Part shown: positions 27,356-57,377 of the stretch, one piece after another
How the letters are laid out: every line of letters starts with the position of its first letter
Position numbering within the stretch: position 1 is the stretch's first letter
NCBI RefSeq assembly: GCF_025263685.1
Contig: NZ_CP092109.1
Span: 124,001 to 188,000 of the forward strand
Length of the DNA stretch: 64,000 nt
Direction: 5' to 3'
Source of the DNA: Geoalkalibacter halelectricus
GTDB lineage: Bacteria; Desulfobacterota; Desulfuromonadia; Desulfuromonadales; Geoalkalibacteraceae
Notes under the pieces: generated by a model
Database searches by the model: none
Seen by the model: the letters and a program-made list of their open reading frames with translations, nothing else
What the model was told of the DNA's origin: nothing
Position numbers and translations under genes: made by a program

Positions 27356-27413
27356 GGGCCGTCCAAACATCCGCGCAAAGGTTTTTGGTCTGGATAATTT
27401 ATGACACCTTATT

Positions 27414-36363: not shown

Positions 36364-36608
36364 ACTGCAACTCCAAAACATTGTTCTGCGCACAATAAAT
36401 GGCACAGCGAAATCACCAACAAGCCAGCCAAACCGCTGCATTCGCAGACACGGCAGCGCCCTAAATCCTTTGCTCTTCCCAGCGCATCCCGTAAAAAATC
36501 AAGAACTTAGAGCAAAAAGGCCAGATCGTTGGAAAATACTAATGCAATATCAAAGCCAGAAAGGGCTTGCGGGGGATAAGTGGAGGGGAAGCGGCGGGCG
36601 CGACGTGA
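36364..36608. other. promoter region of giant cytochrome 1
   Basis: Between the two giant genes. AT-rich compared with its surroundings at about 36290-36420 and 36480-36560. It should hold the promoter of copy 1, because the terminator of copy 2 closes that gene at 36609. No hallmark of a GEMM (c-di-GMP/cGAMP) riboswitch was found. Confidence 0.5.
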
Positions 36609-36634
36609 AAAGGCCCGGATCACTCCGGGCCTTT
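36609..36634 (-). terminator. terminator of giant cytochrome 2
   Basis: AAAGGCCCGGA, loop TCAC, TCCGGGCCTTT: an 11-bp stem that reads into CCTTTTC on the minus strand. Nearly identical to the hairpin at 28157-28180. Confidence 0.85.
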
Positions 36635-36646
36635 CTTGTGTATGGG

Positions 36647-42600: not shown

Positions 42601-44794
42601 GCGCGCCGGTGTGGCAAGTCAGGCAGTCGGCGCTCTGTGGGTTGCCCCACACCAAAATGATTTCGGGTGATTCCACCCCGTGGCAGCTATTGCAGGTTTC
42701 ATGGTCGACCGTGAGCGCCCCGTCCACATGTCCGGCGTGGGCACCCGTATCGGCACCGGCGCCGTGACAGGCCGCGCAGCCGATGTTGGCGCCCAGGGGA
42801 TCGACGTGCACCCCATGGCTGCCGCTCAAATCGGCCCCGGCCACCGCATGACAACTGCCGCAGGCGCCGCTGGCGGCATCGCCCCAGGCGGGCGAGGCGA
42901 AGTTGCCCTGGCCGTCCGAGTGGCAGAACACCGCGCAACTGCCGTTCACACTGTTATAGGTGGCGACGCCGAGCAGGGCGTTGCCGAGATTGTAGCCGCT
43001 GTCGAACACCACATCCACCAGGCCGTTGACGTGGGTGCCGCCCTTGGCGCCCGCGACCAGGCTGCCGGCACTCGCGGCGGTCTCCACATGGCAGACGTTG
43101 CAGGCATAGCCCGCCGCCAGGTGCTTGAGGTGGGCGCTGGAGTTGTTGCGCGCGGTCATGGTGGCCGCGTCGTTGCCGTGGCAGGCGATGCAGGTGGTGA
43201 TGGTTCCCTTGCCGCCGCCCCAGGAGACGCTCACCGTGGTGAAATCGCTCGCGGTCTTGCCCGACGGGTTGTGCTTGCCGCCGCTGCTGTGGCAGTAGAG
43301 GTTGCTGCAGGTGCCGCTGCCCGAGGGATTGTAGGAAGGGCTGAGAATCCCGCCCGCGGTGACCAGGGAATCGAAGGAGTTGCCGCTGAGAAACACATCC
43401 TGGAAGCTACCCTGATTGTGGGTGGCGGCGAAGTCGTCGGCGTTGTGGCACAGGTTGCAGGTAAAGCCGTAACCGCTGCCCGCTCCCGAATGGGAGGTGT
43501 GAGGCGTGAAATTTTCGTTCTTGGCATTGGCGGCGAGGGCGTAATTGTGGCCGCTTTCCACGTAGGCATAGCCGTTGGGGCCACCAGGAATATGGGCCGA
43601 GGGCGGAAAACCGTGGCAGTCGGCGCAGTTGGCGCCGAAGGAATAGGTCATGCCCGAAGCGTTGTGGCTGTGGCAGGCCAGACAGTTCTCGCCCGCGATA
43701 TGGGCGCGCGAACTGTTGGGCATGGTGGTCAGCTCGCCATGGCAGCGCTCGCAGAACCCGTCGGCGCTGCCGGGGGTGCCCGCCCACTGGGCGGCGATGG
43801 TGGAAGATCCGCCGTGCACGTTGGGCAGCACCGTGTAACGCAAACCGCCCACTGGCCCGTAGGTCTGGGTTTCGGTCTGGCTGCGCAACACGAAATAGTT
43901 GACCTGACCGGCATTGTAGGAATGGCCGCTGTGACACACCAGGCAGCCGATTTCTTCCTCGGCGCTGCCGTGGAATTTGTAGGTATGGCAGGCCTGGCAC
44001 AGGGGATAGGTTCCGGCCGATTGCGGCCCGTCGCCGCGCAGCAGCTTGCCGTCGCCGCTGCCGGCCTGCCCCGGCGCCGTTGGCGTATCCGCTTTGGAAT
44101 CGGCGAAATGCACGCCGTGACAGGAGGAGCAGCCGACCCCGCCGTTGCTCAGAAGCTGAATGTCGCCGGGCCAGGCTTCGACTTCCGCGATGGGCCGGTA
44201 TTTGTCGGGCTGGGCGGCGGCTACCGCCGCGTAGTCTGCCACGCTGGGATGGGTGAGCAGGCCGCGGTCCTCGCTGCCCACCACCCAGGGCGCGTGGCAC
44301 TCGACGCACATCTGGTCGCGGCTGCCCGCGCCCAGACGCAGGATCTTGGTATTTTCCGGATCACGGCTGTGGGGGTCGTGGCAGCGCTGGCAGGTGATTT
44401 TGCCGGTGGAGACATGGTAGCGCCCGTAGAAGCGCCGATCGCTCGGCGCCTGGGCCCCGGCTGCGGGGTTGACGTCCTTGCCCGCCCAGATATGCGAGGT
44501 CTGCGCGCCCGGTTCCAACCCCGGCGGATAGGAACCCATGGCGTTGCTGGCGTCGCCCGGCGCAAAGCGCGCATTGGGTGCTCGGGAAGTACCGTCGAGC
44601 ATTGGTATGGGGCTTGCGCCTTCACGGTGACACCGCAGGCAGAGATTGGTCGTGCCCTGCCCCAGGTCAGTAAAACTGACCCCGACCATGTGGCAGTTCT
44701 TGCAGTCGAAGTTGTGCACCACCGTGGCTTCGGACGCCACCGCGCCCAGTACCACGACCACCAGAGCCAAAGCCCATCGACGCCACCACCGCAT
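36647..44794 (-). CDS. giant multihaem cytochrome c with FN3 domains, copy 2 (34 CXXCH plus 5 atypical motifs)
   Basis: 2,715 residues, collinear with copy 1 throughout. ATG 44794 follows GGGAG at 8 nt; its signal peptide (MRWWRRWALALVVVVLGAV) is unrelated to that of copy 1, and similarity starts abruptly at ATVVHNFDCKNCH. It has 24 CXXCH plus CSNLYCH, CAVFCH and CSNIACH before residue 1060, then FN3/Ig-like and beta domains. The C-terminal block has 10 CXXCH plus CFGFNATNVTGCH and CLGTSQMRCH. A GHGLQTGDRVVIYMP segment there resembles FCCH-type beta modules of some phage and surface proteins. It has its own promoter and terminator, so the two copies can be expressed separately. Predicted exported electron carrier. 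Confidence 0.95.
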   Translation of the reverse strand: MRWWRRWALALVVVVLGAVASEATVVHNFDCKNCHMVGVSFTDLGQGTTNLCLRCHREGASPIPMLDGTSRAPNARFAPGDASNAMGSYPPGLEPGAQTSHIWAGKDVNPAAGAQAPSDRRFYGRYHVSTGKITCQRCHDPHSRDPENTKILRLGAGSRDQMCVECHAPWVVGSEDRGLLTHPSVADYAAVAAAQPDKYRPIAEVEAWPGDIQLLSNGGVGCSSCHGVHFADSKADTPTAPGQAGSGDGKLLRGDGPQSAGTYPLCQACHTYKFHGSAEEEIGCLVCHSGHSYNAGQVNYFVLRSQTETQTYGPVGGLRYTVLPNVHGGSSTIAAQWAGTPGSADGFCERCHGELTTMPNSSRAHIAGENCLACHSHNASGMTYSFGANCADCHGFPPSAHIPGGPNGYAYVESGHNYALAANAKNENFTPHTSHSGAGSGYGFTCNLCHNADDFAATHNQGSFQDVFLSGNSFDSLVTAGGILSPSYNPSGSGTCSNLYCHSSGGKHNPSGKTASDFTTVSVSWGGGKGTITTCIACHGNDAATMTARNNSSAHLKHLAAGYACNVCHVETAASAGSLVAGAKGGTHVNGLVDVVFDSGYNLGNALLGVATYNSVNGSCAVFCHSDGQGNFASPAWGDAASGACGSCHAVAGADLSGSHGVHVDPLGANIGCAACHGAGADTGAHAGHVDGALTVDHETCNSCHGVESPEIILVWGNPQSADCLTCHTGAQTTVYTDRDGVQRSASAMSAYYAAGHGGVAAPQRCRDCHSTEFDADHMGADSTNRLRAIYGNDFNSDPQAFCNICHSFDAQLHYATTGTSHDASNCIACHDPHGQSGAQDAMIRDQIGGRQVVGFSDRNERSSYYLALPNQGGNNQYGICQVCHESNAVSYYNRTEEAPAHFAGLCISCHMHDGDELAFTPTGCNGCHGGGNNDPPTDNFWPDGELRIDYSIADRAGSHFVHVDAIGQALSGLNDGAWAAYGNKLNYQNQACSYCHPSPGGSNASGGPHSSPVTGRTDGKADLLNDAWNDGNFRDMSGNVDLTGFYNPVIQRCSNIACHSNGDFTWTWYEDKIAPGKIEDLAAHSGTLVGTVKLSWTPPDNDGDLPPGYQGQKGPGVYGYEIRYRTGGPVTDANWSSSAIAAGPPSAIRNYDNDPRTQTMTVYGLTPGMSYYFGVKAFDETMINHSPVSNSQSAQALVDSFAPRFQGLESARPAFISGSVDLHWSPARDDTGPITYLVYWVPSSQTIDWNNPQATTTATAFHVTGLQNGLDYLFAVRARDASPAQNVDANEVIKIAIPQSPSENDIFGRMYYGIANSGTNLGGGSTNLTLSCGSSMSFSSQYTSLMRDSGYACGDRTRNRIQSISSSGNIITWVLNSPYDVDTIIHGGSMSLYLRNRSDNGTITVHFDLGYWDNGFQTLDTFTRVLPRRHRGSVKAYFPAEPPQVGEPPKVFRVPKDKRLAIRLRKDGTREMEVWFGSKRGASLLTVYEQESNLLPNPFSVTTPNSPASGDVAINWTAAVDPEGDEVLYDVYGSVDGGASWPYIIAVDVSGTSALWRTKKDGLALNAPLNNVRVRVGAGDGMMHRIIGSDPGGLAADTFHDRRNALTGTFSVNNSVDTTPPAAITDLVAEHRPKFGTVWLYWHAPGDDGKEGRAHQYDIRYKESVPYNPADAINSEAKWNAATPVVGSPPLPAEPGRSQGFEVLGLNPGKDYFFSVRTADEAGNWSSLSNSPSAKGGLRCGVCHGNPPDDYATKGSHEMHGYTQVDCAKCHGAGAVDYDLKHYGGGIKLAWNNPKKGYFNQAVTHTALTSGLVEYHDKGVLIYRDATGPGGFNDLSIEMKNVDSGTCFGFNATNVTGCHGSGAPVWGDRDSVSCALCHGDPDRSDKDYYGRDWEDQTTDTRYGGNKPIYKAAPPINLLGNSNDFSVGQHLRHLNFSYRFTGDQCSLCHLGADHADGTVDVKLHSAAGENAQWIPPQGGNPGTCLGTSQMRCHGDNADLPEWRPRASEPNGPKLIACNECHGHEANVYWPGATTAMATAGRASTVNGNQNGDGVRTTLTVSGTGNNLLVGDRFKKAGTFFKITHKDSTTLTLHKPIPTGINFASGDVLRTEHIPHVYDGGTVRYCTWCHVEGHPQGDETGEGRNPPGEETVFIPNFPMVGLDYSSGGIHLRKTIGGRGPFHTEAEICWGCHDAQTPRISEWGYSGLARNKVTEQAITNVTKGTTTTIRSDGHGLQTGDRVVIYMPAGIQALNGWAGTITRTGVNTFTLDDTDTSSVTANFSSTNAKWKLATDYDYGVLHGGNGTWGSRTPVSNWVGATWDSPYFRYKTGTVQSTHSVNPEVTRPGVDAVAQIRCSYCHDVHDMNHAPGDVYSGRPYLRGSWKGNPYFEDGAPGRFEGYRQLTTNAARQSYYFTGSMDDFGMVPRGSTTMNKMGGYWIDQNSDYPTVTWTLQDSAGLCTLCHGTDVNSMNKFEVDEQGNPDNAWFSENGHSNAVIGGSGRFRFNVYNPAVRKEGGTNLRPGMGYQDTDGRNSSEIDRLYGLRNDMGSSNIDRVTDSARGVYPYAWGTSNVRNRYAVEEFAWGVNLDTEVAEPMYHRFSCSKCHNPHASRLPRLMITNCLDVSHNKWDDSFVTDSYWNSGRDNVGTVRWDGVGTGTRAQVMPYTGSDVSGQNRNRQFAYATSAINCHRFVKVDSTIEEPGWNRVTPWEEAPTWYNSN

Positions 44795-44853
44795 ATACAC
44801 CGCTCCCAGATGCAATAAAAACACGGTTAAATTTTCGCATTTTCACGACCGGG

Positions 44854-45204: not shown

Positions 45205-46125
45205 TCAAGGCAGAGTCAGGGACAGGGGTGCGGGGAGCGGCTCGGGGATGGCCACGCGTCCCAGGTGCGTGTCGAATTCGTGATCGAAGATCTGTGGGCG
45301 AATCTCCTGGGGATCGGCGCTGCCCCACCAGTTGCGCGGCAGGGTCACATCGCCGCTCTGGTCGAAGCCGAGGCGGACATGGTACAGGCGGCTGTTGGTG
45401 ATGTTGTTGTACTCGATGAGGCTGTTGTCGTCGGAGCGGGTGACGACGAAGACACCGATGTCGTTGTCGCGGATTTCGTTGCGGTGCACGTGGGCGCGCC
45501 CACGCCGCTCCTCGAAGCGCAGGCCGTGGGTGTTGTCGTGGATGAGGTTGCCGGACACCTCGAGGTTGACGGTGGAAAAGCGCACCCCGTCGACGTTGTG
45601 GCGAAACACCGAATTCTTCACCGAGGCCTGGCAGAAATGCACCTGAATGCCGCTGAAGGCATACTCGCTGATGATGTGCTCGATCACGCCTTCACGGGCG
45701 AAGTTGAGGTAGAGAAACTTCCAGTCGGATTTTTGCGGGTTCTCGGCGGCGCTGGTGAATAGAATCGGCTGCTCGGGCGTGCCGCGCGCCACGATGCCGC
45801 CCTCGATCAGCAACTCCGAATCGCCGATGCCGTCGCCGTCGCGGTCAATGGGCGTGAACAGCACCCGCGTGCCGGGCAGAATGGTCAAATGGCCGCTTCT
45901 CTTCACCACCACCACCCCGGTGATGCGCACCTCACCGCTCCAAACCGCCTCACCCTCGATCACCGCATCGGTCAGATGCAGCACCGGCGCCGCCACAGGC
46001 GGCCGCGCACAACCGGCGAACAGTAAGACCACCACCAGCAGCAAAACACCGAGGCCCTTTATATAGGTCCCATCCGTCCCCACCGTCCCACAAGTCCCAT
46101 GATTTTTTCCCCACCCCGCCCTCAT
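45205..46125 (-). CDS. NosD-like right-handed beta-helix lipoprotein (beta-helix 1)
   Basis: 306 residues. The only in-frame ATG, 46125, overlaps the upstream stop as ATGA. The first 23 residues are encoded by a GGGAC-type repeat, after which comes a lipoprotein signal GLGVLLLVVVLLFAGC. The body shows the parallel beta-helix ladder: VWSGEVRITGVVVVKRSGHL, then rungs such as SVFRHNVDGVRF, GNLIHDNTHGLRF and NEIRDNDIGVFV, and the terminal RNWWGSADP shared by all three beta-helix proteins here. Such folds occur in NosD and carbohydrate-active proteins; here there is no obvious catalytic site. It is the last gene of a seven-gene operon. Confidence 0.88.
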   Translation of the reverse strand: MRAGWGKNHGTCGTVGTDGTYIKGLGVLLLVVVLLFAGCARPPVAAPVLHLTDAVIEGEAVWSGEVRITGVVVVKRSGHLTILPGTRVLFTPIDRDGDGIGDSELLIEGGIVARGTPEQPILFTSAAENPQKSDWKFLYLNFAREGVIEHIISEYAFSGIQVHFCQASVKNSVFRHNVDGVRFSTVNLEVSGNLIHDNTHGLRFEERRGRAHVHRNEIRDNDIGVFVVTRSDDNSLIEYNNITNSRLYHVRLGFDQSGDVTLPRNWWGSADPQEIRPQIFDHEFDTHLGRVAIPEPLPAPLSLTLP

Positions 46126-47171
46126 AACGCAAATCCCAGATCCACCGGCGCAACCTCGATATCGATCCCTTCCAGGGTCTCACCGGGCAGAACCATCAGA
46201 CTATGATCGGCGGTTTGGTCGTACATGCCGAACAACTCGCCGGGGCGCGGCGAATCGCCGTATTTCTGCCGCGAACCGACGTAATAGACCCCCGGCTCAC
46301 GCAGATAAACCACATAGCGGCCATCGACGCCGGTCGGGGCGGAGAGGGCCGCGGGGCGCTGATGGCCGATGACCCGATCGGTATAGGCGAACACGTGCAT
46401 CCCGGCCACCGGCCGTCCCTCGGGATCGACGACCCGACCGGAAAAGGCCATGCCCGTGGCGCGCACGAAGGTTTCGCTGCGATTTTCGTCCTGCACCTTG
46501 CGCACCATGGGCAGGTTGATATCCAGGCTTTGGCCGGCGGGAAGATACAAGGGATTGCCCGCGTAGACCCCGAACAGATCGCCCTCGCGCACCGGCCCCA
46601 CCTGACCGCCGCCGGCGCGCTTGCGCGCCACCAGGTAATAGCCGGTCTCCGGCAGGGTGTCGAAGGCAAAGCGCCCGTTGCTGCCGGTGGGCGGCGACAT
46701 GCGGTAGCCCTGGCCCTTGAGATCCTCCTCGGCGTCGAGATACAGATAGACCCACGCTCCGGCGACGGGCGCGCCCTCGAACAGCACCACCCCTTCCACC
46801 GCCCCGTTGAACTCGTCATCGTAGGGCGCCGTGCGCGGCGGGGTGGTTTTCACGCCCTGCAGCCCGGCCCACACCGTCTCGTCGGCCAGGGCCACGGGAT
46901 TGCGGCCGCAAAAAGCGAACAGGCCGCGCTCAGCGTCGCGGGCGAACAGGGCATGGAGGCCCGCGGGCAGATCCAGGCGATAAAGACCGAACTCATCGCT
47001 GGGCTCCGAGACCGCCAGGGGTTCCTGGGAGAAATCCAGCGTCGCATGGGCTTCGACGCGCATGCCCTCCAGGGGCTCGCCGTCGAGCACCACGCGGCCC
47101 TCGATGCTTGCGCCGAGGACGGCGCTCGCGGTCAATCCCAGGGTCAGCAGCACAATCAGCAATCTTGTCAT
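46122..47171 (-). CDS. secreted protein with three carboxypeptidase-regulatory-like domains (sandwich 1)
   Basis: 349 residues with a signal peptide (about 1-21, AVLGA) and an AAGGAGG ribosome site. It has three repeats of a beta-sandwich (CarboxypepD_reg/transthyretin-like) fold at about 22-110, 120-235 and 240-340. Each starts with G.V...G.P..G..V..Y and ends with a G.YYL.A segment. The second repeat carries the local signature VYLYLD, GYYLVARKR, GPVREGD and AGNP. No protease motif is present, so this is a binding or structural module. It overlaps the neighbours at both ends by 4 nt. Confidence 0.86.
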   Translation of the reverse strand: MTRLLIVLLTLGLTASAVLGASIEGRVVLDGEPLEGMRVEAHATLDFSQEPLAVSEPSDEFGLYRLDLPAGLHALFARDAERGLFAFCGRNPVALADETVWAGLQGVKTTPPRTAPYDDEFNGAVEGVVLFEGAPVAGAWVYLYLDAEEDLKGQGYRMSPPTGSNGRFAFDTLPETGYYLVARKRAGGGQVGPVREGDLFGVYAGNPLYLPAGQSLDINLPMVRKVQDENRSETFVRATGMAFSGRVVDPEGRPVAGMHVFAYTDRVIGHQRPAALSAPTGVDGRYVVYLREPGVYYVGSRQKYGDSPRPGELFGMYDQTADHSLMVLPGETLEGIDIEVAPVDLGFAL

Positions 47172-48550
47172 GGCACCTCCTTGGGGCCGGCGTCGGCCAC
47201 CGGCTCATCCAGCCAGGGCGCGAACACCACCCGATCGACGAGATAGGTCTCATCTCCCCATCCCTGATAGCTGACCCGCCCCAACTGCCGACGGTCGCGG
47301 AAAAAAGGCACCTCGCCCTCGGCACCCGCCGCGCGCAGGACCTCGGTATCCTCTCCCCACCAGTTGTGGCGCACGTCCACCTCGTCGTGAAACTCCGTCG
47401 GCGCCCGCGCCAGCAGGGGATTCTGGCTGCGCCGCGCCTGGGCCTGCTCCAGGGCGATGTGGCGCGAACCGGCCCGCGCCTCGAAATCCGCGCTTTGCTG
47501 CGGTCCCAACTCCACCCCCATCCCGTTGCCGATGAAATTGTTGTTGCGCACCCGCGGATAGGAGGAGAAATCACAGAACAGAGCGCGCTGGTTGTCGCGA
47601 AACTCGTTGTTCTCCACCACCGGATCGGACTTGCGGTTGTTCCACAGGGCGGTGCCGTTGTCGGCGAACAGGTTGTGGCGCACCTGGGCCGAGCCGAATT
47701 GATCGTTGCGCACGGCCTTGCCGTTGCCGACGAACTGGTTGTGTTCCACCTGCGGGAAGGAAAAGGAGGCATTGACCAGGGCGAATTCACTGCCCCGAAA
47801 CTCGTTGCCGACGATGCGCGGCGAGCGCTGAGTCTGGTTGCAGAAGATGGCGGTGTCGTTGTCCATGAAGCGGTTGGCGGCAACGCTGCCCTCGAAGCGG
47901 CCCTTGAGCCCCAGGGCCTGGCGATTGCCCTCGAAGCGGCAGTCGCTGATGTCGCCGCCGCTGCCGTGACCGGCGATAAAAGCGCTGCCGCGGTGATTGC
48001 GAAACAGGCTGCGCGTCACCCGCACCCGGGATTTCATCTGCGCTTCAAGACCCACCTGGTTGTCGGCGAACAGGCAGTCCTCGATCACCGCCTCGGATTC
48101 GCGCACCAGGTCGATGCCATGCCCGCCGCCGCGAAAGGCGCTATGGGTGACCCGCAGACGCGCGCCCAGAACCCGCAGGGCCACTTCGGCCCCTTCGAAG
48201 CGGGCATGCTGTATCTCGATGGGCCGGGCCGGCTCCATCAGTTCGAAACCCTGCCAGCCGGGAGGCGCGGCGAACACCACCGGGGCCTCTTGCGTTCCGG
48301 CGATCTCCAGGCCGCCGCGCACCAGGATACGCGCCTCGGCATCGGCCACCTGAACCCGCGTGCCCGCCGCAATGACCAGCACGCCATCGCTCGGCACCTC
48401 CAGGGCGGCCTTGAGCGCGACCTTTCCGTTCCAGCGCGTCTCGCCCGCCGGCAGCCGCTCCAACGCCGCGGCCGGCAGCTCGCCCAGAAGCAGCAAAGCC
48501 AGCACGGCCGCCGCCGCAATCCTCAAGCTAAAGAGCCTGTTTCTCGACAC
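47168..48550 (-). CDS. secreted right-handed beta-helix protein (beta-helix 2)
   Basis: 460 residues, GTG start at 48550 (23-nt overlap with the upstream gene) with a GAGG motif about 9 nt away. The signal peptide spans about 1-29 (AAALE). An unusually regular ladder of about 22-residue rungs follows: SAFRGGGHGIDL, CLFADNQVGLEA, NRFMDNDTAIFC, NQFVGNGKAVRN, NLFADNGTALWN, NEFRDNQRALFC and NNFIGNGMGVEL. It ends with VDVRHNWWGEDTE and a C-terminal tail that includes VFAPWLDEP, similar to the VEFAPWRNAP of beta-helix 3. Function unknown; probably periplasmic or surface located. Confidence 0.88.
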   Translation of the reverse strand: MSRNRLFSLRIAAAAVLALLLLGELPAAALERLPAGETRWNGKVALKAALEVPSDGVLVIAAGTRVQVADAEARILVRGGLEIAGTQEAPVVFAAPPGWQGFELMEPARPIEIQHARFEGAEVALRVLGARLRVTHSAFRGGGHGIDLVRESEAVIEDCLFADNQVGLEAQMKSRVRVTRSLFRNHRGSAFIAGHGSGGDISDCRFEGNRQALGLKGRFEGSVAANRFMDNDTAIFCNQTQRSPRIVGNEFRGSEFALVNASFSFPQVEHNQFVGNGKAVRNDQFGSAQVRHNLFADNGTALWNNRKSDPVVENNEFRDNQRALFCDFSSYPRVRNNNFIGNGMGVELGPQQSADFEARAGSRHIALEQAQARRSQNPLLARAPTEFHDEVDVRHNWWGEDTEVLRAAGAEGEVPFFRDRRQLGRVSYQGWGDETYLVDRVVFAPWLDEPVADAGPKEVP

Positions 48551-49613
48551 GAATACGCACCTCGCTCACGCCTTGCTCGGCATTCAGAAGCAGCCCGCCG
48601 GCGCCGTTGTCATGGCGACCGTACCACTCGCCCTCCCCGGCCGGCCCGCCGAAGGTCTGGCGCGCCAGAAAAAACCAGGGACCCGCGTCGGGCAGGGCCA
48701 GCTCGAAACGGCCCGCGGCGTCCGTGGCCGGCGAGAAGACTTCCGGATGGCCGGTCATCTCGGCATTGCGGTAGGCGAACACCCGCACCCCCGCGAGCGC
48801 CTCGCCCTCGGGCCCGCTGATGGTTCCGCGTACGCCCTGGAAAGGCGGCGCCTCGCCTTCTTCGAGCAGGGCCAGGCGGGTGATGGTCTCGATGTCGACC
48901 CGGTGCATCTCGCCCTCGCCGATGCGCACCGGGTTGCCGTAGTAAAAATTGAAATAATCGCCGATCTCGATGGGGCCGAACTGCCCGCCCTGAGCGCGCT
49001 TGCGCGCCAGCACCCAATATTCGCCGGGCGGCAGGCGCAGGCGAAACTGCCCGGACTCCACGGGCTGAATGAGGTAGCCGGGTCCCTTGAATCCCCGCGA
49101 GGGATCGGTATAGACGTAGAGATACACGCGCTCGAGCAACTGCTCCTCGAAGGTGATCCGTCCCTCGATGCCGCTCATGCCGCCCGTTTGCGGCGCGGGC
49201 GTTTCACCCAGGCGAATGAGGTTGAAGCCCACGTTGGTGTAGTGGCCGGGGCTCACCCGCACCGGCGCGCCGCTGTAATAGCAAAAGTGGTCCCCCGGCG
49301 CGGGCGCGCCCTCGAAGTCGCGCGCCACCAGGTAATACTCGCCCGGTTCCAGGGCTAGACGATAACTGCCGTCGACATCCACCGGCGCCGATACCGCCAC
49401 ACTGCGTCCGGCCGGGATGTCGGCTACGGCGCGGTAGGCATGCACCCGCACCCCCTCCACCAGTTCGCCCTGCCAGGCCACCCGCCCCTGCACTCCGGAT
49501 TCGGCCCAGGCCGACAGGGCGAAGAGCAGCAGCACCACCGAAATAATCATCGGCCGGATCAACCCGATCGGCCCCAGGGGTGTCAAATAAAAGGTCTTTC
49601 TGGTTCTGATCAT
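48528..49613 (-). CDS. secreted protein with three carboxypeptidase-regulatory-like domains (sandwich 2)
   Basis: 361 residues. ATG 49613 (TAATG with the upstream gene) has AAGGAA at 7 nt; the n-region is long, and ATG 49550 (MIISVVLLLFALSAWA) is an alternative without a ribosome site. Three beta-sandwich repeats lie at about 40-140, 145-250 and 255-355. The middle one has VYLYVYTDPSRGFKGPGY, ARKRAQGG, GPIEIGDYF and YYGNP. The same motif set as in the other sandwich proteins of this locus marks them as one family, with the repeats presumably forming an elongated rod. Confidence 0.86.
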   Translation of the reverse strand: MIRTRKTFYLTPLGPIGLIRPMIISVVLLLFALSAWAESGVQGRVAWQGELVEGVRVHAYRAVADIPAGRSVAVSAPVDVDGSYRLALEPGEYYLVARDFEGAPAPGDHFCYYSGAPVRVSPGHYTNVGFNLIRLGETPAPQTGGMSGIEGRITFEEQLLERVYLYVYTDPSRGFKGPGYLIQPVESGQFRLRLPPGEYWVLARKRAQGGQFGPIEIGDYFNFYYGNPVRIGEGEMHRVDIETITRLALLEEGEAPPFQGVRGTISGPEGEALAGVRVFAYRNAEMTGHPEVFSPATDAAGRFELALPDAGPWFFLARQTFGGPAGEGEWYGRHDNGAGGLLLNAEQGVSEVRIRVEKQAL

Positions 49614-50806
49614 TACTGATTCCTTGCGTTAGGGGCCAAGGGCGCGTTTCGCCAGGGCGCGAACTCGACCACATCCAGGGGATATTTGACCCCGGCATCC
49701 TCGAAATAGGGCTCATCGCGGCCGTCATGAATGAAGGAGGGATTGCCGTAGCCGGCGCCGCGCGCCAACTCTTCGACGGCGTCCTTCCCCCACCAGTTGT
49801 GCTTGGCATCCACGGTGCCGGTGAGCACGCGCGGCTGAAGGGCGGCGGCATCGGCCGGTTGGCGCGCCGCCTGGCCGAAGGCGCCGCGTCCGCCGCTCTC
49901 GGCAGCGCGGGCCGCCTCGCCGTTGGCGCGCTCCCAGGCCGAGGACTGATGGCTGAGCACCAGGGCCATGGCGTTGCCGGCCAGATCGTTTTCACGGATC
50001 ACCGGATAGGAGGAATACTCCACCTGCACGCCGATGCGGTTGCCGTGGATGCGGTTGTGGCGCACCCGGGCATCGGCGCGCCGCGACAAAAGCACGCCGG
50101 TGCCGCCGCCGCTGATGTCGTTGCCCACCAGCACCGGCCGCGCCGCCCGATCGACCTGGATGCCGATCTCGTTGCCAGCGAAGCGATTGCCGCCGATCTC
50201 GGGGTCGCTGCCGTAGTAGGCGACCATCAGCCCCACGGGATTGGCGCGCAACAGGTTGTCGCGAAACAGGGTGGGATTGGAACGGTAGACATAGACGCCG
50301 AAGCGGCCGTTGCCTTCGATGACGCAATTCCGCACGCGCGGCCGGGCCTCGTCCTTGAGGAACAGCCCCACGGTCTGATTGTCGCGGATGCGGCAGTCGC
50401 GCACCTCGGCGTTGCTCTGGCGGCGCAGTTCCAGACCGGTGCCGTTGGCGAAGATCTCCAAACCGATCAGCCGCGGCGCGCCGCCGAGCACCAGCAGTCC
50501 CAGGCGCGCCCCGCTGATGCGGCAATTCTCGAGCAGATGCTCGCCAGCGTGCAGTTGAACCCCCTCCCAGTCCGTCCCGGAGAATTGCGCGTCGCGCGCC
50601 TCAAGCCGTCCCAGCACCTCAAGGCCGCCGCCCTGGAACCGAACCTGGGTGCCCGGCTCGACGCGCAGGGTCGCGCCGCGCTCCACCCGCACCGGTTCGG
50701 CAAACTCCAGGGTGCCGCGCCACAGGGTATCCTCGGCGATGGTCAGGGCCTGCGCCGTCGTCGGCAGCAGCGCGCACAGAATCAGGAACCAGAGTTTTTT
50801 CACCAC
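49613..50806 (-). CDS. secreted right-handed beta-helix protein (beta-helix 3)
   Basis: 397 residues. The start is GTG 50806 or the adjacent GTG 50803, both behind GGGAGG. Signal peptide MVKKLWFLILCALLPTTAQA. The helical ladder runs from TLWRGTLEFAEPVRVERGA through rungs such as CRISGARLGLLV, CVIEGNGRFGVYV, NRFAGNEIGIQV and NRIHGNRIGVQV. It then has an Ala-rich insertion of about 35 residues and VDAKHNWWGKDAVEELARG near the C-terminus. It is the first-transcribed of three beta-helix proteins, and its stop overlaps the next sandwich gene. Confidence 0.88.
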   Translation of the reverse strand: MVKKLWFLILCALLPTTAQALTIAEDTLWRGTLEFAEPVRVERGATLRVEPGTQVRFQGGGLEVLGRLEARDAQFSGTDWEGVQLHAGEHLLENCRISGARLGLLVLGGAPRLIGLEIFANGTGLELRRQSNAEVRDCRIRDNQTVGLFLKDEARPRVRNCVIEGNGRFGVYVYRSNPTLFRDNLLRANPVGLMVAYYGSDPEIGGNRFAGNEIGIQVDRAARPVLVGNDISGGGTGVLLSRRADARVRHNRIHGNRIGVQVEYSSYPVIRENDLAGNAMALVLSHQSSAWERANGEAARAAESGGRGAFGQAARQPADAAALQPRVLTGTVDAKHNWWGKDAVEELARGAGYGNPSFIHDGRDEPYFEDAGVKYPLDVVEFAPWRNAPLAPNARNQ

Positions 50807-51858
50807 ACCTCCCGCACGCGCAGATCGCCCAGGGACACCTGGGTGCCGCGCTCGATGTCGGCGCCGCGGTCGGCGCGGCCGGCGTAGGTGCCGACCCGCT
50901 CGCCGGGCTCCAGGGGCCCGCCGAAACGGCTGCGCGCCCCGATGTAATAGGTGCCGCCCTCGGTCAGATAGAGAATGAAGCGGCCCTGCGCGTCGCTCGG
51001 TTCGGAGATGTAGGTCGGCTTGCCGACCATGCGCCGGTCGAGATAGGCGAACACGTAGATTCCCGCCTGGGAGCGGCCTTGCCCGTCCACCACCCGGCCG
51101 GTAAAGGCCGTGTCGGTGGAGGCGAATTTTCCCTCGGAGCGGCGCAGGACGCGGTTATCCAGATCGACGGCGGCGACGCGCAGATCCTCAAGCTCAACCT
51201 CCTGGCCCAAGGGCACCGCTACGGGGTTTTTCCCATAGACGCCGTTGAGATCACCCGGCGCGGGCTCGCCCAGGCGCGAACCGTCGCCGCGTTGGCGGGC
51301 CGCCAGGTAATAGCTGCCGGCGGGCAAGGGGATTCGAAAACTTCCCGCCGCGTCGGTGCGCACCGCCTCGGCATAGGAAGGCCCCATGAGCCCCGCATCC
51401 TCGTTCATATAGACATAGACCCAGGCACCCTCCACCGGCCCGGCCTCGCCCACCACCCGGCCCTGCACGGCGGTTCCGGGATCGGGCACCAGCCCGGCGC
51501 CGCGCCCCATCTCGCGCAGGCCGAAGGGCGGCACTCGCTCCCGCCCCTTCACTTCGACGGGGTTGATGGGGCATTCGGCCATGAGCATGCGGTCGCGGCC
51601 GTCCTCGCCCTCCTCGCGCTTCTTGCCGATGAGATAGTAGCGCCCCGGCGGCAGATCGAGGCGGTAGCGCCCGCGCTCGTCCGTGACGGCCACGGCGAAG
51701 GGCGCGACGCTGCGATCCTGACCGCTCTTGAGATAAATCTCCACCTGCGCATCGGCCAGGGGACGCTCACCGAACAGCAGCGTACCTTCCACCCCACTGT
51801 CATTGGGCGTGCACGCCCAACCCAGCACGGCCACAGCTAAAATCACCCAAAGTCGCAT
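50800..51858 (-). CDS. exported protein with three carboxypeptidase-regulatory-like domains (sandwich 3)
   Basis: About 352 residues. ATG 51858 gives MRLWVILAVAVLGWACTPN; ATG 51876 adds six residues encoded by a GTGGACAGG repeat and is the alternative. The segment around Cys looks like a lipobox, but Trp at -2 is unusual, so lipidation is uncertain. Repeats lie at about 25-120, 130-235 and 240-350. The second has the shared signature (VYVYMNEDAGLMGPSY, PAPGDLNGVYGKNP) and the third GIYVFAYLDRRMVGKP and YYIGARSRFGG. It overlaps beta-helix 3 by 7 nt and follows the spermidine-synthase-like gene by 44 nt. Confidence 0.84.
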   Translation of the reverse strand: MRLWVILAVAVLGWACTPNDSGVEGTLLFGERPLADAQVEIYLKSGQDRSVAPFAVAVTDERGRYRLDLPPGRYYLIGKKREEGEDGRDRMLMAECPINPVEVKGRERVPPFGLREMGRGAGLVPDPGTAVQGRVVGEAGPVEGAWVYVYMNEDAGLMGPSYAEAVRTDAAGSFRIPLPAGSYYLAARQRGDGSRLGEPAPGDLNGVYGKNPVAVPLGQEVELEDLRVAAVDLDNRVLRRSEGKFASTDTAFTGRVVDGQGRSQAGIYVFAYLDRRMVGKPTYISEPSDAQGRFILYLTEGGTYYIGARSRFGGPLEPGERVGTYAGRADRGADIERGTQVSLGDLRVREVW

Positions 51859-51902
51859 CCTGTCCACCCTGTCCACTCAGTCCACTCAGTCCGCCACCCA
51901 CC

Positions 51903-54332
51903 TCACCCCGGCCGATACCACCACACCGCCGCCAAACCGACCAGATAGACCCCGACACCCGCCAGCAGCGTCAGGGTAAAGCCGAAGTTCATGCTCAGCA
52001 CCGCCGCGAAGATGGCGCCGAACACGCTGGTGGCGCTGTTGATGCCCCAACTCCAGGGCACCGCCGCCGGAGTGGGGTGAAAGGCGCGCATCCCCAGGGG
52101 CAGCGGCATGCCCAGAATCAGACCCAGGGGCGCCAGCAGCACCACCGCCAGCACACAGCGCAGCAGCAGGGGCAGGGTCAGCCAACTGGTCAGCACGGGC
52201 GGAAGCACGGCCACATACACCAGGGACAGCAAAATCAGTGCCGGAAGCAGGCGCAACAACATCCGCCGCTCCGCGCCCGGGCCGCAGCGCGCCGCCAGCA
52301 GCGAACCGATGCCGGCAAACACCAGCAGGGCGAACAGCACCACCGCCAGAGCGTAGATGGGTGGCCCGAGAAACACGGTGAAGCGGCGCAGCAGACCGAT
52401 CTCGATGAGCATGAAACCTAGCCCCAGACAAGCGAAATAGAGCAGCCGCGGCGCGGTGCCCGGGGTGCGCAGCTCGCGGCCGCGCAGCAGCGCCAGGGGC
52501 AGCAGCAGACACACCAGCACCAGGCCCGTCACCACCACCAGCAGATTGCGCAGGGTCAGGATGGCGCGATCCTCGAAGGGGCTCTGCTCGGGAAAGGTCA
52601 GTAGGCGCAGGAAATCCTCGGGTTTGAGCATGTAATAAAAAAACGGCCGATCATCGCTCACCGGGCGGATGTCGAAGGGAAACTCCCGATAAAAGGCGTC
52701 GCTGCCCTGGGAGGCGATGAGGCGGTGATACTGGCTGTCGCCGTCGCGGGCGTCGGGCATGAACACCAGATCGTATTCCCGCGCCCGCGCCTCCTCGCGC
52801 AAAAAGCCCAGTTCCTCGGTCGTGAAGGGGCTGCGCTTGAGCATGAAGTTGGCCAGGCCGCGCTCGCGGATGACCACCAGATGCGCGGCCGGATCCTCGA
52901 CGCCCTTTTCCTTGAGCAGTTCCAGGCCCAGGGACACCAGGCGCAGGGTCTCGCGCTCGAAGATGAACCGCGAGATGGACAGGATGCCGTCCTCGCTGAG
53001 CCGGTCCCAGTAGTCGCGAAAGGCCTCCACGGTGTAGAGGTTGTTTTCCGAGAGGGTGAAGGCGCCCGCCGCCGGGGCCATGCGCCCGAACACCGCCGAG
53101 GCCTGGATAACGTCGAAGGTCTCGGAGGAGCGCCGCACGAAGCTGCGCCCTTCGTCCACCACCAGGCGCACGCGCGGGTCGCGGTAGAGTTCGCCGCTGA
53201 AGGCGGCGAAGCGCTCGTTGACCGCCTCGGCGATGAGCGAGTTGAGTTCGACGGCCGTCACTCGCGCGGCGTCCGCGGCCAGGGCCACCAGCACGTCCTT
53301 GCCGCCGCCGGGGCCGATGGCCAGGGCGTTGGCTCCGGGTCGCAGGGCGTAGGCGAGGCTGATGACGTTGGCGCGGAAGAATTCGCGGAAGCGTTCGTCG
53401 TCGCGGCGAAACAAGGTGGTGTAGCCGCTGTCGTCGATGACCATGCCCAACTGCTCGGGGATCGGCCCGCGATAACTGCGCGACAGGCCCCAGGCGCGCT
53501 CCTGCTCCTGTCCCTGGGAGGGGTAGACCGCCACGCGCGAGAAGCTGTTCCAGCCGCTCCAGATCATGCCCGGCTCGTAGCGCCCGCGGGCAAAACGGAT
53601 TTCGGCGTAATCGGCGACGTAGTTGCCGATGCCCGCAGCGGTCAGCACCGCAAGCACCAGCCACAGGCCGGCGCGCCTGCCGCGCGGGGCGTCGGCGGGC
53701 AGAAACAGCGCCGCCGCCGCAAGGCCCAGGGCGGCGATGACCAGAATAGCGGTGATGCCGCCCACCAGGTTGAGCACCGCGATGATGGCCATGCAGCCGG
53801 CGCCGGCGCCGAGCAGATCCCAGCAGTACAGGCGGTTGATGTCGCGCAGGTGGCGGGTCAGCAGCAGGGTCACGGCCAGGCCGCTGCAATAAAAGGGAAA
53901 AGCCGTCACCAAATAGAGCGCCGCCAGAGCCGGCAGCATGCCGGCGGGTACCGAGGTGGCGCCGGGGCCCTGCTGAAAGGGCTGGTAATGGGGCTGATGG
54001 AAAAAGGAGAGAACCGTGAAGCCGAACTGCGGATAGAGCCGAAAGAGCACGAACAGGCCGAAGAACAGAGTCACCCCGACGGCGAACAGGGCGCTCCAGC
54101 GCGCCGCGATGAGAGAGCCGCGCTCCAGGGGAAACCAGCGCGGCGCCAGGGCGATGGTCAGGGCCGCCGCGCCCAGCCCGAACAGCGCCAGGGAAATGGC
54201 CATGGAGGCGAAATGGTACCACATCAGCACCGAGAAGATGCGGGTCAGCACCAGCTCGTACATGAGCGTTGCCATGCACAGCAGAAACATGCCCCAGCAG
54301 GTGCGGCGGTCAAGTGTCGAGGAATTGTTCAT
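51903..54332 (-). CDS. membrane-embedded spermidine-synthase-like protein
   Basis: 809 residues. An N-terminal multi-helix membrane domain (about 1-240, LLCMATLMYELVLTRIFSVL) precedes a Rossmann methyltransferase/aminopropyltransferase-like domain (about 270-520; AIGPGGGKDVLVAL, VTAVELNS). A second membrane domain occupies about 540-800. Where spermidine synthases have a D-S/T-S/T-D-P active-site loop, this protein reads FDVIQASAVFGRM, lacking the conserved Asp. A polyamine-forming activity is therefore doubtful, though SAM or decarboxy-SAM binding remains possible. It is the first gene of the beta-helix/sandwich operon, and a relative begins at 62919. Confidence 0.85.
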   Translation of the reverse strand: MNNSSTLDRRTCWGMFLLCMATLMYELVLTRIFSVLMWYHFASMAISLALFGLGAAALTIALAPRWFPLERGSLIAARWSALFAVGVTLFFGLFVLFRLYPQFGFTVLSFFHQPHYQPFQQGPGATSVPAGMLPALAALYLVTAFPFYCSGLAVTLLLTRHLRDINRLYCWDLLGAGAGCMAIIAVLNLVGGITAILVIAALGLAAAALFLPADAPRGRRAGLWLVLAVLTAAGIGNYVADYAEIRFARGRYEPGMIWSGWNSFSRVAVYPSQGQEQERAWGLSRSYRGPIPEQLGMVIDDSGYTTLFRRDDERFREFFRANVISLAYALRPGANALAIGPGGGKDVLVALAADAARVTAVELNSLIAEAVNERFAAFSGELYRDPRVRLVVDEGRSFVRRSSETFDVIQASAVFGRMAPAAGAFTLSENNLYTVEAFRDYWDRLSEDGILSISRFIFERETLRLVSLGLELLKEKGVEDPAAHLVVIRERGLANFMLKRSPFTTEELGFLREEARAREYDLVFMPDARDGDSQYHRLIASQGSDAFYREFPFDIRPVSDDRPFFYYMLKPEDFLRLLTFPEQSPFEDRAILTLRNLLVVVTGLVLVCLLLPLALLRGRELRTPGTAPRLLYFACLGLGFMLIEIGLLRRFTVFLGPPIYALAVVLFALLVFAGIGSLLAARCGPGAERRMLLRLLPALILLSLVYVAVLPPVLTSWLTLPLLLRCVLAVVLLAPLGLILGMPLPLGMRAFHPTPAAVPWSWGINSATSVFGAIFAAVLSMNFGFTLTLLAGVGVYLVGLAAVWWYRPG

Positions 54333-54523: not shown

Positions 54524-55987
54524 TTACCTCGGTTCGACGATCTCCAGCATCTGCCCGGCTTTCACGCCGCTTTTACGCACCTCGACGCCGCTGGGGAAGC
54601 GCACCAGCACATCGACGCCGCGCCGCCCGTCCAGGCCGAAGTGGGCCAGGTTGGGTTCCTGGGCGCAGAAGCCGGTGGCCGAGCGCATCTCGCGCATGGC
54701 GATCATTTGACCCGAATCCGGGTCCAAAATTTTGACACGCGCGCCGTAGGCGTCGCGGTTGGATTGGGTTCCGACCAGCTTGACCTTGAGCCAGTCGTTG
54801 TTTTGCATGCGGTTTTCAAACAGGCGATTGGAAGCGCCCCAGTTGACCACGTAGAGATCCAGGGAGCCGTTGTTGTTAATGTCGGCGAAGGCCGTGCCCT
54901 TGGTGCGCACGGTTTCGCATTTGACCACCGGCAGATCCTCGGCGACGTTGACCAGGTTGCCCCGGCCGTCGTTGAGGTAGAGCTGGTTGGCCAGCTTGCA
55001 GTCGCCCTCGTAGAGATCGAGCAGGCCGTTGTGATTCACGTCGCCGAAGGTCGGTCCCTTGCCCCAGCCTTCGCCGGCGCCCTTGAGCCCCTGGGAGGCA
55101 TCGCGGAAGGTGCCGTCGCCGTTGTTGAGATACAGGCGGTTGCCGCCGACGTAGTTGGACACGAACAGATCGAGATGGCCGTTGTTGTTGACGTCGGCGA
55201 AACTCGCGCCCAGCCCCCAGTGGGGATCGGCGACCCCGGCCTCGCGCGAACGCTCGGTGAAGGTGCCGTCGCCGTTGTTGATGTAGAGGCGATTGGGCTC
55301 GCCGGCCGGATAGCGGCCGTTGACCACGTAGAGATCCTGCAGGCCGTTGTTGTTGACGTCGCCCCAGATGCCCATCCAGCTCCAGCCGCGATCGCCGACC
55401 CCGGCCTCGTCGGTCACGTCGGTGAAGGTGCCGTCGCCGTTGTTGCGAAACAGCACGTTCCTGGCGCCCACGCCGTAATTGGCGCAGTAGATGTCGAGAT
55501 AGCCGTCGTTGTCGAAATCGACGAAGGAGGCACCGTAGGTAAAGGCCCGCAAACCGACGCCGGCCTGCTCGGTGACCTCGGTGAAGGTGCCGTCACAGTT
55601 GCCCCTGAACAACCGGTTGGCCTCGATTTCATGGCGCCCGCCCGTGGCCAGGTAGAGATCCACGCAGCCGTCGTTGTCGAAATCGCCGAACACGCTGCCC
55701 ATGGTGAAGCCGGGATGGTCGATGCCGGGTCCGGCCTGGTCGGTGAAGTCGGTAAAGGTGCCGTCGCCGTTGTTGAGGTAGAGCTTGTTGGCGCCGCCCT
55801 TGTTGGAAATATAGATGTCCATGTAGCCGTTGTTGTTGACATCGGCAAAGGCCACGCCCTTGCCGAAGCCCTCGTCGGCAACCCCGGCAAGTTCGGAAAT
55901 ATCGGCGAAATCCACCGCCCCCGCCGTTCCCATGCCGCCCAGAAGCAGAGCCCCGACAACCGCCGCCTGTTTCAATCCTTTAAACAT
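54524..55987 (-). CDS. secreted FG-GAP/VCBS beta-propeller protein with ASPIC/UnbV domain
   Basis: 487 residues. ATG 55987 follows GAGGAG; the longer frame to 56140 is rejected. The signal peptide spans about 1-25 (GTAGAVDF). About eight repeats of the type NNGDGTFTDVTDEAGV, spaced by DFDNDG or DVNNNG calcium-binding loops, form an integrin-like propeller. The last 90 residues (WLKVKLVGTQSNRDAYGARV, GLDGRRGVDVLVRFPSGVE) match the ASPIC/UnbV domain. Such proteins are extracellular or periplasmic and of unknown biochemical role. It is transcribed before the spermidine-synthase-like gene on the same strand, with a palindrome in the 191-nt gap. Confidence 0.9.
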   Translation of the reverse strand: MFKGLKQAAVVGALLLGGMGTAGAVDFADISELAGVADEGFGKGVAFADVNNNGYMDIYISNKGGANKLYLNNGDGTFTDFTDQAGPGIDHPGFTMGSVFGDFDNDGCVDLYLATGGRHEIEANRLFRGNCDGTFTEVTEQAGVGLRAFTYGASFVDFDNDGYLDIYCANYGVGARNVLFRNNGDGTFTDVTDEAGVGDRGWSWMGIWGDVNNNGLQDLYVVNGRYPAGEPNRLYINNGDGTFTERSREAGVADPHWGLGASFADVNNNGHLDLFVSNYVGGNRLYLNNGDGTFRDASQGLKGAGEGWGKGPTFGDVNHNGLLDLYEGDCKLANQLYLNDGRGNLVNVAEDLPVVKCETVRTKGTAFADINNNGSLDLYVVNWGASNRLFENRMQNNDWLKVKLVGTQSNRDAYGARVKILDPDSGQMIAMREMRSATGFCAQEPNLAHFGLDGRRGVDVLVRFPSGVEVRKSGVKAGQMLEIVEPR

Positions 55988-56351
55988 GATCACTCCTCTA
56001 AAAACGAGAAACCCCGTGAAATCACCACACCCGCCGGGCACACCCGGTCTTTTGCCGTGCCGCGGTAGCCGTTGCACCCAAGGGCCGCCAGGCGAAGCAT
56101 CGCCCGCTACCATCCGGGATAACCCGGCACCATCCTCCACGCGATTGACTTACAATCATGAAAATCTTGCAATATCCGCACCCATTTCTTCCCGGGAAGA
56201 CGAAAAGATTCTTCGCGGCGCCGGGGTCAAAATCTCGACAGGACGATCGCGCCGAGCGGCGCCGAAAGGGCGCGCCGGGGCTGGTATGTTCCTTGCTTTT
56301 TGTCCAGGCGCGACCCGAATATTGCTTTTCGCGTCTTTCAAGGACAAGCCT
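55988..56351. other. 364-nt divergent promoter region
   Basis: Between the divergent propeller gene and the EB_dh lipoprotein gene. It contains several GC-rich hairpin-forming segments (for example CCGGGTGTGCCCGG read on the minus strand) but no gene. I checked for and did not find a GEMM riboswitch consensus. Confidence 0.5.
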
Positions 56352-57377
56352 TTGACCCGATGGATCTGGATACTGGCCGCCGCGCTGCTGATGGCGGCAG
56401 GCCTTGGCGGGTGCCGCGAGATTCCCGCCGACCGCCTCTACGCCCTCAAGCTGACGCACGCGCCCACCGAGAGCGACTGGGAGCGCGCCCTGCCGCGCCA
56501 GGTGCGGGTTCGCGGCGGCCGCCTGCATGAACTGCGCGGCCAAGCCGACCTCAACGAGGACATGGTGCACGCCGCGACGCCCGCGTGCCACCACGGCGCC
56601 CTGCCGCCCGAGCCCATCAGCGTCGACCTGCGGGCCTTCTATACCGACACCGATCTCTACCTGCGCCTGTCCTGGCCCGACGCCACGCGCGACGACCGGC
56701 TCAAGCAATGGCGCTGGGACGGCGAGGCCTGGCACAACGAAGGCGGGCTGGAAGACGGGCTGGGGATTTTGTGGGCCGAGCGCCGGGATTTTCCGCGCTT
56801 CACCTGCGCCCAGGCCTGTCACATCGCGGATTTCGCGGTCAGCGGAGCGAATTTTCACGGCCGCAGCCGCATGCGCCTGCAACAGGAAGGCCCCTGGCTC
56901 GACCTGTGGCGTTGGCGCGCCGACCTGAGCGCGCGCCACGGCTTTGCCGACGACCTGTGGCTGGATGCCGCGGGCATGCATCCGGACGTCCCCGGCGAAC
57001 TGCTACGGGCGAATTCCCGCGCCGCCCTGGACCCGGACACCAACCTGGTGCCTTTTGAAGAAGGCGATGCGCCCCTGCGCGACGCCGAGGGGCGCGCCGC
57101 GACGGGCTTTCGCCCCCCCGGCAGCACCGCGCCGGGCTACCTGGTCGAGCGGCCGCGCGGCGGCCGCGCCGACATCCGGGCCTGGAGCCGTTACGAAAGC
57201 GGCCACTGGACGGTGATCCTGCGCCGCGCCCTGGACACCGGCGATGCGCGCGACGTCGTGTTTCGCCCCGGCGACCCGCAGGGCACGGCCTTCGGGTTGG
57301 CCATCATGGATCACACCCCCGTCGACCACTACGCTTCAACCTTGGAGGAGATCCTGGTGTTGCTGCCGGGGGAATGA
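56352..57377 (+). CDS. ethylbenzene-dehydrogenase-type (EB_dh) haem-binding lipoprotein
   Basis: 341 residues from a TTG at 56352, which has AAGGA upstream and yields MTRWIWILAAALLMAAGLGGC, a lipoprotein signal. The mature part fits the EB_dh/c-type DMSO-reductase gamma-like haem domain (VDLRAFYTDTDLYLRLSWPD, DGLGILWA, and a conserved C-terminal RGGRADIRAWSRYESGHW...LGIMDH-like region). It also has CAQACH (CX3CH) near residue 160 and CHHG near residue 80, so covalent haem attachment is possible but non-canonical. EB_dh proteins are periplasmic electron-transfer subunits. This is the first gene of a plus-strand run. The start is the least certain part. Confidence 0.78.
   Translation: MTRWIWILAAALLMAAGLGGCREIPADRLYALKLTHAPTESDWERALPRQVRVRGGRLHELRGQADLNEDMVHAATPACHHGALPPEPISVDLRAFYTDTDLYLRLSWPDATRDDRLKQWRWDGEAWHNEGGLEDGLGILWAERRDFPRFTCAQACHIADFAVSGANFHGRSRMRLQQEGPWLDLWRWRADLSARHGFADDLWLDAAGMHPDVPGELLRANSRAALDPDTNLVPFEEGDAPLRDAEGRAATGFRPPGSTAPGYLVERPRGGRADIRAWSRYESGHWTVILRRALDTGDARDVVFRPGDPQGTAFGLAIMDHTPVDHYASTLEEILVLLPGE

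Follow-up and report, generated by a model that had tools for sequence, protein, structure and literature searches.

A seven-gene sandwich and beta-helix operon of Geoalkalibacter halelectricus and the larger Desulfobacterota envelope system to which it probably belongs

Layout, products and conservation of the operon

The 64,000-nucleotide stretch of the Geoalkalibacter halelectricus genome analysed here (the window) carries on its minus strand, from 54332 to 45205, an operon of seven genes that we call module A. In transcription order it encodes a spermidine-synthase-like (SpdSyn-like) membrane protein, SPD, and then three beta-sandwich (S) and three beta-helix (H) proteins in the order S1-H1-S2-H2-S3-H3; sandwich 3 and helix 3 of an earlier note on this DNA are S1 and H1 here. 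Synteny and co-occurrence across related genomes make it very probable that module A is a conserved part of one multi-locus Desulfobacterota envelope system, together with two further gene sets, modules B and C. The genes of module A, with product lengths in amino acids (aa), are as follows.

51903..54332, minus strand: SPD, first gene, 809 aa, membrane protein with a spermidine-synthase-like domain between two transmembrane blocks
50800..51876, minus strand: S1, 358 aa, lipoprotein with three tandem beta-sandwich domains
49613..50806, minus strand: H1, 397 aa, secreted right-handed beta-helix with a NosD/AlgG-like fold
48528..49613, minus strand: S2, 361 aa, secreted beta-sandwich protein
47168..48550, minus strand: H2, 460 aa, secreted beta-helix protein
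46122..47171, minus strand: S3, 349 aa, secreted beta-sandwich protein
45205..46125, minus strand: H3, 306 aa, beta-helix lipoprotein, sister of H0 of module B

Gene order, domain matches and export signals all bore out the earlier description of a seven-gene alternating operon. The overlap claimed for every junction after the first sandwich was likewise found at five of five junctions from S1 to H3, measuring 7 nucleotides (nt) at S1/H1 (4 nt with the second GTG), 1 at H1/S2, 23 at S2/H2, 4 at H2/S3 and 4 at S3/H3. SPD and S1 are separated by a 26-nt gap, and 380 nt lie between H3 and the first of two giant cytochrome genes.

In a domain search S1 to S3 matched CarboxypepD_reg/DUF4198, H1 to H3 matched Beta_helix/NosD, and SPD matched Spermine_synth, with the transmembrane blocks on either side. 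A true aminopropyltransferase (SpeE) was rejected for SPD on its scores of 33.2 and 23.6 bits against equivalog cut-offs of 260 and 249.55. Every S and H protein has an export signal, which is lipoprotein-like in S1 and H3 and signal peptidase I-like in the rest. A simple lipobox pattern was present in 16 of 20 S1 and 15 of 19 H3 sequences, as well as in 12 of 13 H0 and 7 of 7 S0 sequences of module B, and in none of H1, S2 or S3; the lipobox Cys22 of S1 is invariant across 20 orthologues. The structural model of S1 (predicted local distance difference test score, pLDDT, 84) has three tandem beta-sandwich domains at residues ~28-123, 136-230 and 256-353. Its fold matches, to Gram-positive pilins and adhesins and a putative carbohydrate-binding protein, were local only, with TM-scores of ~0.2, so that we used them for domain type alone; in this low-scoring search the three domains were probably placed differently from one another. 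H1 was modelled (pLDDT 90.6) as a regular right-handed beta-helix, whose solved-structure neighbours by sequence profile and fold are the AlgG/AlgE4 epimerases and NosD (PDB 7osf/7o0y). No solved-structure relative of S1, or of the DUF362 protein of module B, was found by sequence search.

Catalysis of the AlgG/AlgE type uses a His. The alignments of H1 and H2 contain no His conserved at 95% or more, and alginate C5-epimerase activity was rejected for these two proteins on that ground.

The order SPD-S1-H1-S2-H2-S3 was kept in all 20 mapped genomes, which span nine families of the order (f1, the family of G. halelectricus, and f3, f8, f9, f14 and f18-f21), and H3 was present in 19 of them, missing only at locus L071. 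At one locus (L069) the reading frame of H1 stays open ahead of its start; with trimmed starts the gene order was the same. Random 20-kb windows of related genomes contained none of the S or H families. S1 orthologues occurred in 41 of 136 genomes of the order, 39 of which also had SPD, and at that level in none of the rest of the class. Each of S1, S2, S3, H1, H2 and H3 formed one monophyletic clade with 99-100% support, which implies that the duplications predate the order. The strict alternation reported for the window is thus kept across the order, among copies that are true paralogues.

Of the proposal that three paralogous pairs arose by repeated duplication of a pair, the paralogy held, and the count did not, since most relatives have a fourth pair, S0-H0, either directly before SPD or at a second locus as in G. 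halelectricus. As to how the pairs arose, the helix tree had strong support for (H0,H3)|(H1,(H2,Hx)), and the approximately unbiased (AU) test could not choose among S1+S2, S1+S3 and S2+S3 in the deep sandwich tree (p 0.3-0.4), so that duplication of whole pairs is one possible origin.

Modules B and C and their linkage to the operon

Module B has the order AAA-FmdE-ArsP-S0-H0-OpuAC-DUF362-NapGH. In families f3, f8, f14, f19, f20 and f21 it forms one contiguous locus with module A, in the order AAA-FmdE-ArsP-[FGGAP]-S0-H0-SPD-S1-H1-S2-H2-S3-DUF3467-H3-OpuAC-DUF362-NapGH-DUF3047, where an FG-GAP gene is often present before S0 and the NapG/NapH-like ferredoxin is fused. In f1, f9 and f18 module B lies apart from A (L086-L089, L091, L153), and f1 has no DUF3467 gene between S3 and H3. 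The G. halelectricus copy is intact on contig C1 (C1:3122827-3132743, locus L020). Its H0 (L020 10272-12119) is a fusion protein in which a PQQ/BamB-like propeller follows the beta-helix at the C-terminus. The OpuAC-type protein (L020 13654-14268; alignment A4), present in 50 of the 136 genomes, has ~205 residues and a CVGKT motif whose Cys is invariant, and covers only both ends of the Pfam and NCBIfam models, as if one lobe were missing. The DUF362 protein has a conserved Tat-like RR motif.

Module C runs EBDH-S4-HEAT-NAPH-Hy1-Hy2-PhnD-TPR-YedE-GeoRSP radical SAM-Csd. The window holds a divergent half of it next to module A, beyond an FG-GAP gene of a kind that precedes SPD or S0/H0 at 13 further loci as well:

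54524..56140, minus strand: FG-GAP/UnbV_ASPIC secreted repeat protein, upstream of module A; true start probably at about residue 50
56502..57377, plus strand: EB_dh-domain (haem-binding-like) protein, EBDH, first gene of the divergent module C half; start approximate
57606..58346, plus strand: S4, two-domain sandwich lipoprotein of the same family as S1-S3
58343..59245, plus strand: HEAT-repeat lipoprotein
59279..60778, plus strand: NAPH, polytopic NapH/NosR-like 4Fe-4S membrane protein
60790..62112, plus strand: TPR protein after NAPH; start approximate

The run from Hy1 to Csd was present in all 12 GeoRSP loci that we fetched (L139-L150), and in five of these (L139, L140, L143, L147, L149) EBDH-S4-HEAT-NAPH stands directly upstream of Hy1-Hy2-PhnD-TPR-YedE-rSAM-SPASM-Csd, where rSAM is the radical SAM gene. 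In G. halelectricus the Hy1-to-Csd run (L024, C1:2829161-2837914) lies 2.65 Mb from module A. Its GeoRSP radical SAM/SPASM enzyme scored 462.6 bits against a cut-off of 400 and its candidate GeoRSP SPASM protein 95 against 300; the PqqD-like chaperone encoded between YedE and the radical SAM gene, which was seen in this genome and scored in its G041 copy, reached 94 bits to TIGR04302 against 100.

Modules A, B and C fuse in varied combinations across genomes. L153 joins module B to the NAPH half of module C, and in L095, from outside the class, S0-H0-SPD-S1-S2-S3-H3-OpuAC-DUF362-NapGH faces NAPH-HEAT-S4 and ResB. Shorter loci with H, S and OpuAC genes, mostly also with ResB, occur in other members of the class (L104-L109), and two of them (L104, L109) carry GeoRSP, YedE and an 8- or 28-haem cytochrome as well. 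Co-occurrence across the 136 genomes was strong by Fisher tests uncorrected for phylogeny: 37 of 41 for S1 with OpuAC (p 7e-18), 38 of 41 for S1 with GeoRSP (p 1.6e-18) and 45 of 50 for OpuAC with GeoRSP (p 8e-23). Each of the four genomes that have S1 and lack OpuAC is a draft, 59-89% complete. Within f3 and f8 both traits are mixed in distribution and go together.

The YedE proteins of the GeoRSP run mostly scored 380-418 bits to the selenium-transporter model, compared to 470-490 for a second group. G. halelectricus has one copy of each, a canonical-scoring one at C1:3060103-3061128 (486 bits) and a GeoRSP-linked one at 2832938-2833939 (397 bits). Judging from these scores, the GeoRSP-linked form seems to make up a subfamily of its own throughout the order, and we treated it as YedE-like and assigned it no cargo; the selenium link of YedE is itself a published inference (PMC5322559).

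A candidate peptide, its possible delivery and competing explanations

Between the radical SAM and SPASM genes lies an 18-residue open reading frame (ORF), MKKYxKPRVVGSSNVHPC, often after a clear AGGAGG-type site; in G. halelectricus it is at C1:2831376-2831432 (L024 4377-4433, minus strand). ORFs of 18-20 residues encoding this peptide or variants of it (the VHPC peptide) were also found in L018, L064, L065, L085, L090, L104, L107-L109, L139-L141, L143-L145 and L147-L150. In L064 and L065 the ORF is placed between FG-GAP and H0, within the joined A and B locus. L104, L107, L108 and L109 have it immediately next to S or H genes; in L085 it is flanked by giant cytochromes and in L090 by TPR genes. 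A pattern scan gave 21 matches in 2.16 Mb of fetched loci and 0 in 0.93 Mb of shuffled sequence, and no NCBIfam model matched the peptide in the 30-residue form that we used. Its YxxP motif is similar to the leaders that PqqD-type domains recognise in other peptide pathways. We infer that the VHPC peptide is probably the substrate of the GeoRSP enzyme.

The transport and redox parts (ArsP, the YedE-like protein, the OpuAC/PhnD-type proteins, NapGH, NAPH and DUF362), together with the NosD-like helices, point to assembly or delivery outside the inner membrane, and we tentatively propose the following chain from module A membership through to cofactor delivery. In the cytoplasm, the PqqD-like chaperone would hand the 18-residue peptide to the radical SAM/SPASM enzyme of GeoRSP, and the Cys-terminal core, once modified, would leave the cell. 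Alongside, Csd (cysteine desulfurase-like) and the YedE-like transporter would contribute sulphur or selenium chemistry, and ArsP and NicO would act as metal or metalloid permeases. Outside the inner membrane, the NosD-like helices and sandwich lipoproteins would act as scaffolds or carriers for a cofactor, either peptide-derived or of metal-sulphur type, which they would receive, assemble and pass on to a redox partner outside the cytoplasm, with electrons coming from quinol via NapH/NapG-type ferredoxins. S1, H0, S0, S4 and H3 would be lipid-anchored, and S2, S3, H1 and H2 soluble.

As a best guess by analogy, the S and H proteins might deliver or assemble a cofactor, like NosD in outline without being NosD, although we would not call this role likely. 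The thing delivered would most likely be a derivative of the VHPC peptide or a metal-sulphur/selenium species. More speculatively, the radical SAM enzyme may use the YxxP...NVHPC peptide to make a new product that contains Cys, either a cofactor or a carrier of metal or chalcogen, received by a quinol-powered sandwich and helix apparatus that recurs across Desulfobacterota, including Geobacter-like groups.

Several observations weigh against placing the modules in one system and against this proposed function. Fisher tests ignore phylogeny, and tallied by genus OpuAC and GeoRSP occurred together in 21, GeoRSP only in 3, OpuAC only in 1 and neither in 28. A few genomes have GeoRSP without OpuAC (G105, 100% complete), and module B occurs without module A (for example in the 99% complete G079), which shows that the rest can do without A. 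The VHPC peptide is absent from the window, by a scan of its whole length and of five gaps, and no catalytic target enzyme or cofactor was identified. The scores to NosD (TIGR04247) were 20.3, 50.2 and 56.3 bits against a 300-bit cut-off, nosZ is not in the genome (TIGR04246, 19 bits against 625), and no NosFY-like ABC ATPase or permease was recognised among the conserved genes; NosD family membership was rejected on these three grounds.

The main competing explanation is that the S and H proteins anchor, fold or sheath giant extracellular cytochromes, with ResB giving haem and the NapH-type proteins electrons. It draws on these neighbours of module A:

36647..44824, minus strand: giant multihaem cytochrome 1, 34 CxxCH motifs; adjacent to the operon only in f1
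28204..36441, minus strand: giant multihaem cytochrome 2, tandem paralogue, 34 CxxCH motifs; 78% identical over its length
26153..27370, minus strand: ResB-like protein; recurs beside S/H/OpuAC genes in other Desulfobacterota

The two cytochromes (window 28204-44824, minus strand) have ~2,700 residues each and are a local duplication. Three ResB-like proteins are encoded in the genome (window 26153-27370, C1:1398399 and 2129315), of which the window copy is divergent.

We consider this explanation rather unlikely. The two 34-haem cytochromes and ResB do adjoin the operon in the window, in L085 the VHPC peptide is encoded between giant cytochromes, and co-transcription of ResB genes with those for multihaem cytochromes was reported in Geobacter (PMC2700814). 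Multihaem cytochromes (MHC), called where one ORF had at least eight haem motifs, were also present in 3 of 3 S5-ResB loci and in 6 of 20 OpuAC loci from the phylum, among them L109, where a 28-haem protein adjoins S/H/OpuAC/ResB. Module A itself, however, had MHC at only 3 of 20 loci, all in f1, compared to 2 of 20 random 20-kb windows; module B had them at 0 of 6 loci, and 42 of the 95 genomes without S1 are MHC-rich by Paired_CXXCH matches. A general link between the operon and giant cytochromes was rejected on the random-window control and these MHC-rich genomes. The earlier note had set the operon beside giant cytochromes and suggested following the sandwich-helix pair and its cytochrome link through other genomes: the pair order was kept, and the cytochrome link holds in the window and in f1 only.

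That note had also read the alternation as three paralogous two-component units; that these are obligate complexes, with every sandwich bound to its cognate helix, we now judge unlikely. Alternation and translational overlap in all mapped genomes would suit such complexes, as would the residual rate correlation of S3 with H3 (0.56, the highest among cognate pairs), but in the mirror-tree analysis cognate S-H pairs averaged 0.32 and non-cognate pairs 0.23 (s.d. 0.18), a difference that is not significant, and the order of the sandwich duplications could not be chosen. The pairing is also broken by S4, which sits with a HEAT lipoprotein, by Hy1-Hy2 and Hx, which occur without a sandwich, and by L095, where S1-S2-S3 have no helix in between; obligate pairing was not upheld. 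It is more improbable still that the helices bind or modify surface polysaccharide and that the sandwiches are adhesin- or pilin-like. The best fold matches of H1 (AlgE4/AlgG) and of S1 are of this kind, but H1 and H2 lack a His at the 95% level, and the conserved loci showed neither a glycosyltransferase nor a polymer exporter.

Returning to cofactor delivery by the S and H proteins, we compared the system with known ones. A literature search, in which subscription journals were mostly not covered, found no description of the operon, in keeping with the statement that no described system has this layout; the sole "georsp" paper was unrelated. The GeoRSP system (NCBIfam TIGR04302/04303/04304) shares the radical SAM gene, and probably the SPASM and PqqD-type genes, with this genome; across the order GeoRSP co-occurs with S1 and OpuAC, and the peptide ORF adjoins both GeoRSP and S/H genes. 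The NCBIfam models found, however, describe cytoplasmic maturation genes, and no paper was found on the S/H, NapGH, OpuAC and ArsP envelope part. NosDFYL/NosR is alike in its extracytoplasmic beta-helix (7o0y/7osf) and NapH-like membrane ferredoxins, and sulphur and metal handling is plausible, but here there are many helices, not one. In the SAO system (NCBIfam SaoE) an ArsP-family permease is also found near an OpuAC-type protein; compared on ArsP and OpuAC alone, the two differ in that the L064 ArsP scored 106.6 bits to SaoE (NF040736) against a cut-off of 325 and the OpuAC protein here matches only the domain ends. Geobacter ResB-cytochrome clusters (PMC2700814) likewise place ResB beside multihaem cytochromes, and in relatives ResB is also beside S/H/OpuAC genes, but only in f1 does the seven-gene operon stand beside cytochromes.

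The operon had been singled out as the best candidate for an undescribed apparatus. It is indeed a piece of an undescribed system, although one larger than and different from that proposed: about 30 genes that recur across Desulfuromonadales and beyond, in groups central to metal and sulphur cycling, with an undescribed function. Together with the candidate peptide link, the operon makes a single testable pathway out of a group of orphan families (CarboxypepD_reg, NosD-like, DUF362, one-lobe OpuAC and GeoRSP). Should the peptide prove to be a cofactor or metal carrier, it would represent a new class of natural product with its own envelope delivery machinery, and the peptide and enzyme set are small enough for in vitro testing.

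Other genes in the window and genome

Elsewhere in the window, two TonB-dependent-receptor-like proteins with near-identical plug motifs, judged from the translations, are encoded at 6891-8948 and 11595-13601 (plus strand), on either side of the genes for a hybrid sensor kinase and a short periplasmic protein. The genome also has single S-family genes at L021 9071-11028, L022 8931-9782 and L023 8215-9902, the last of which follows a 4-haem cytochrome gene.

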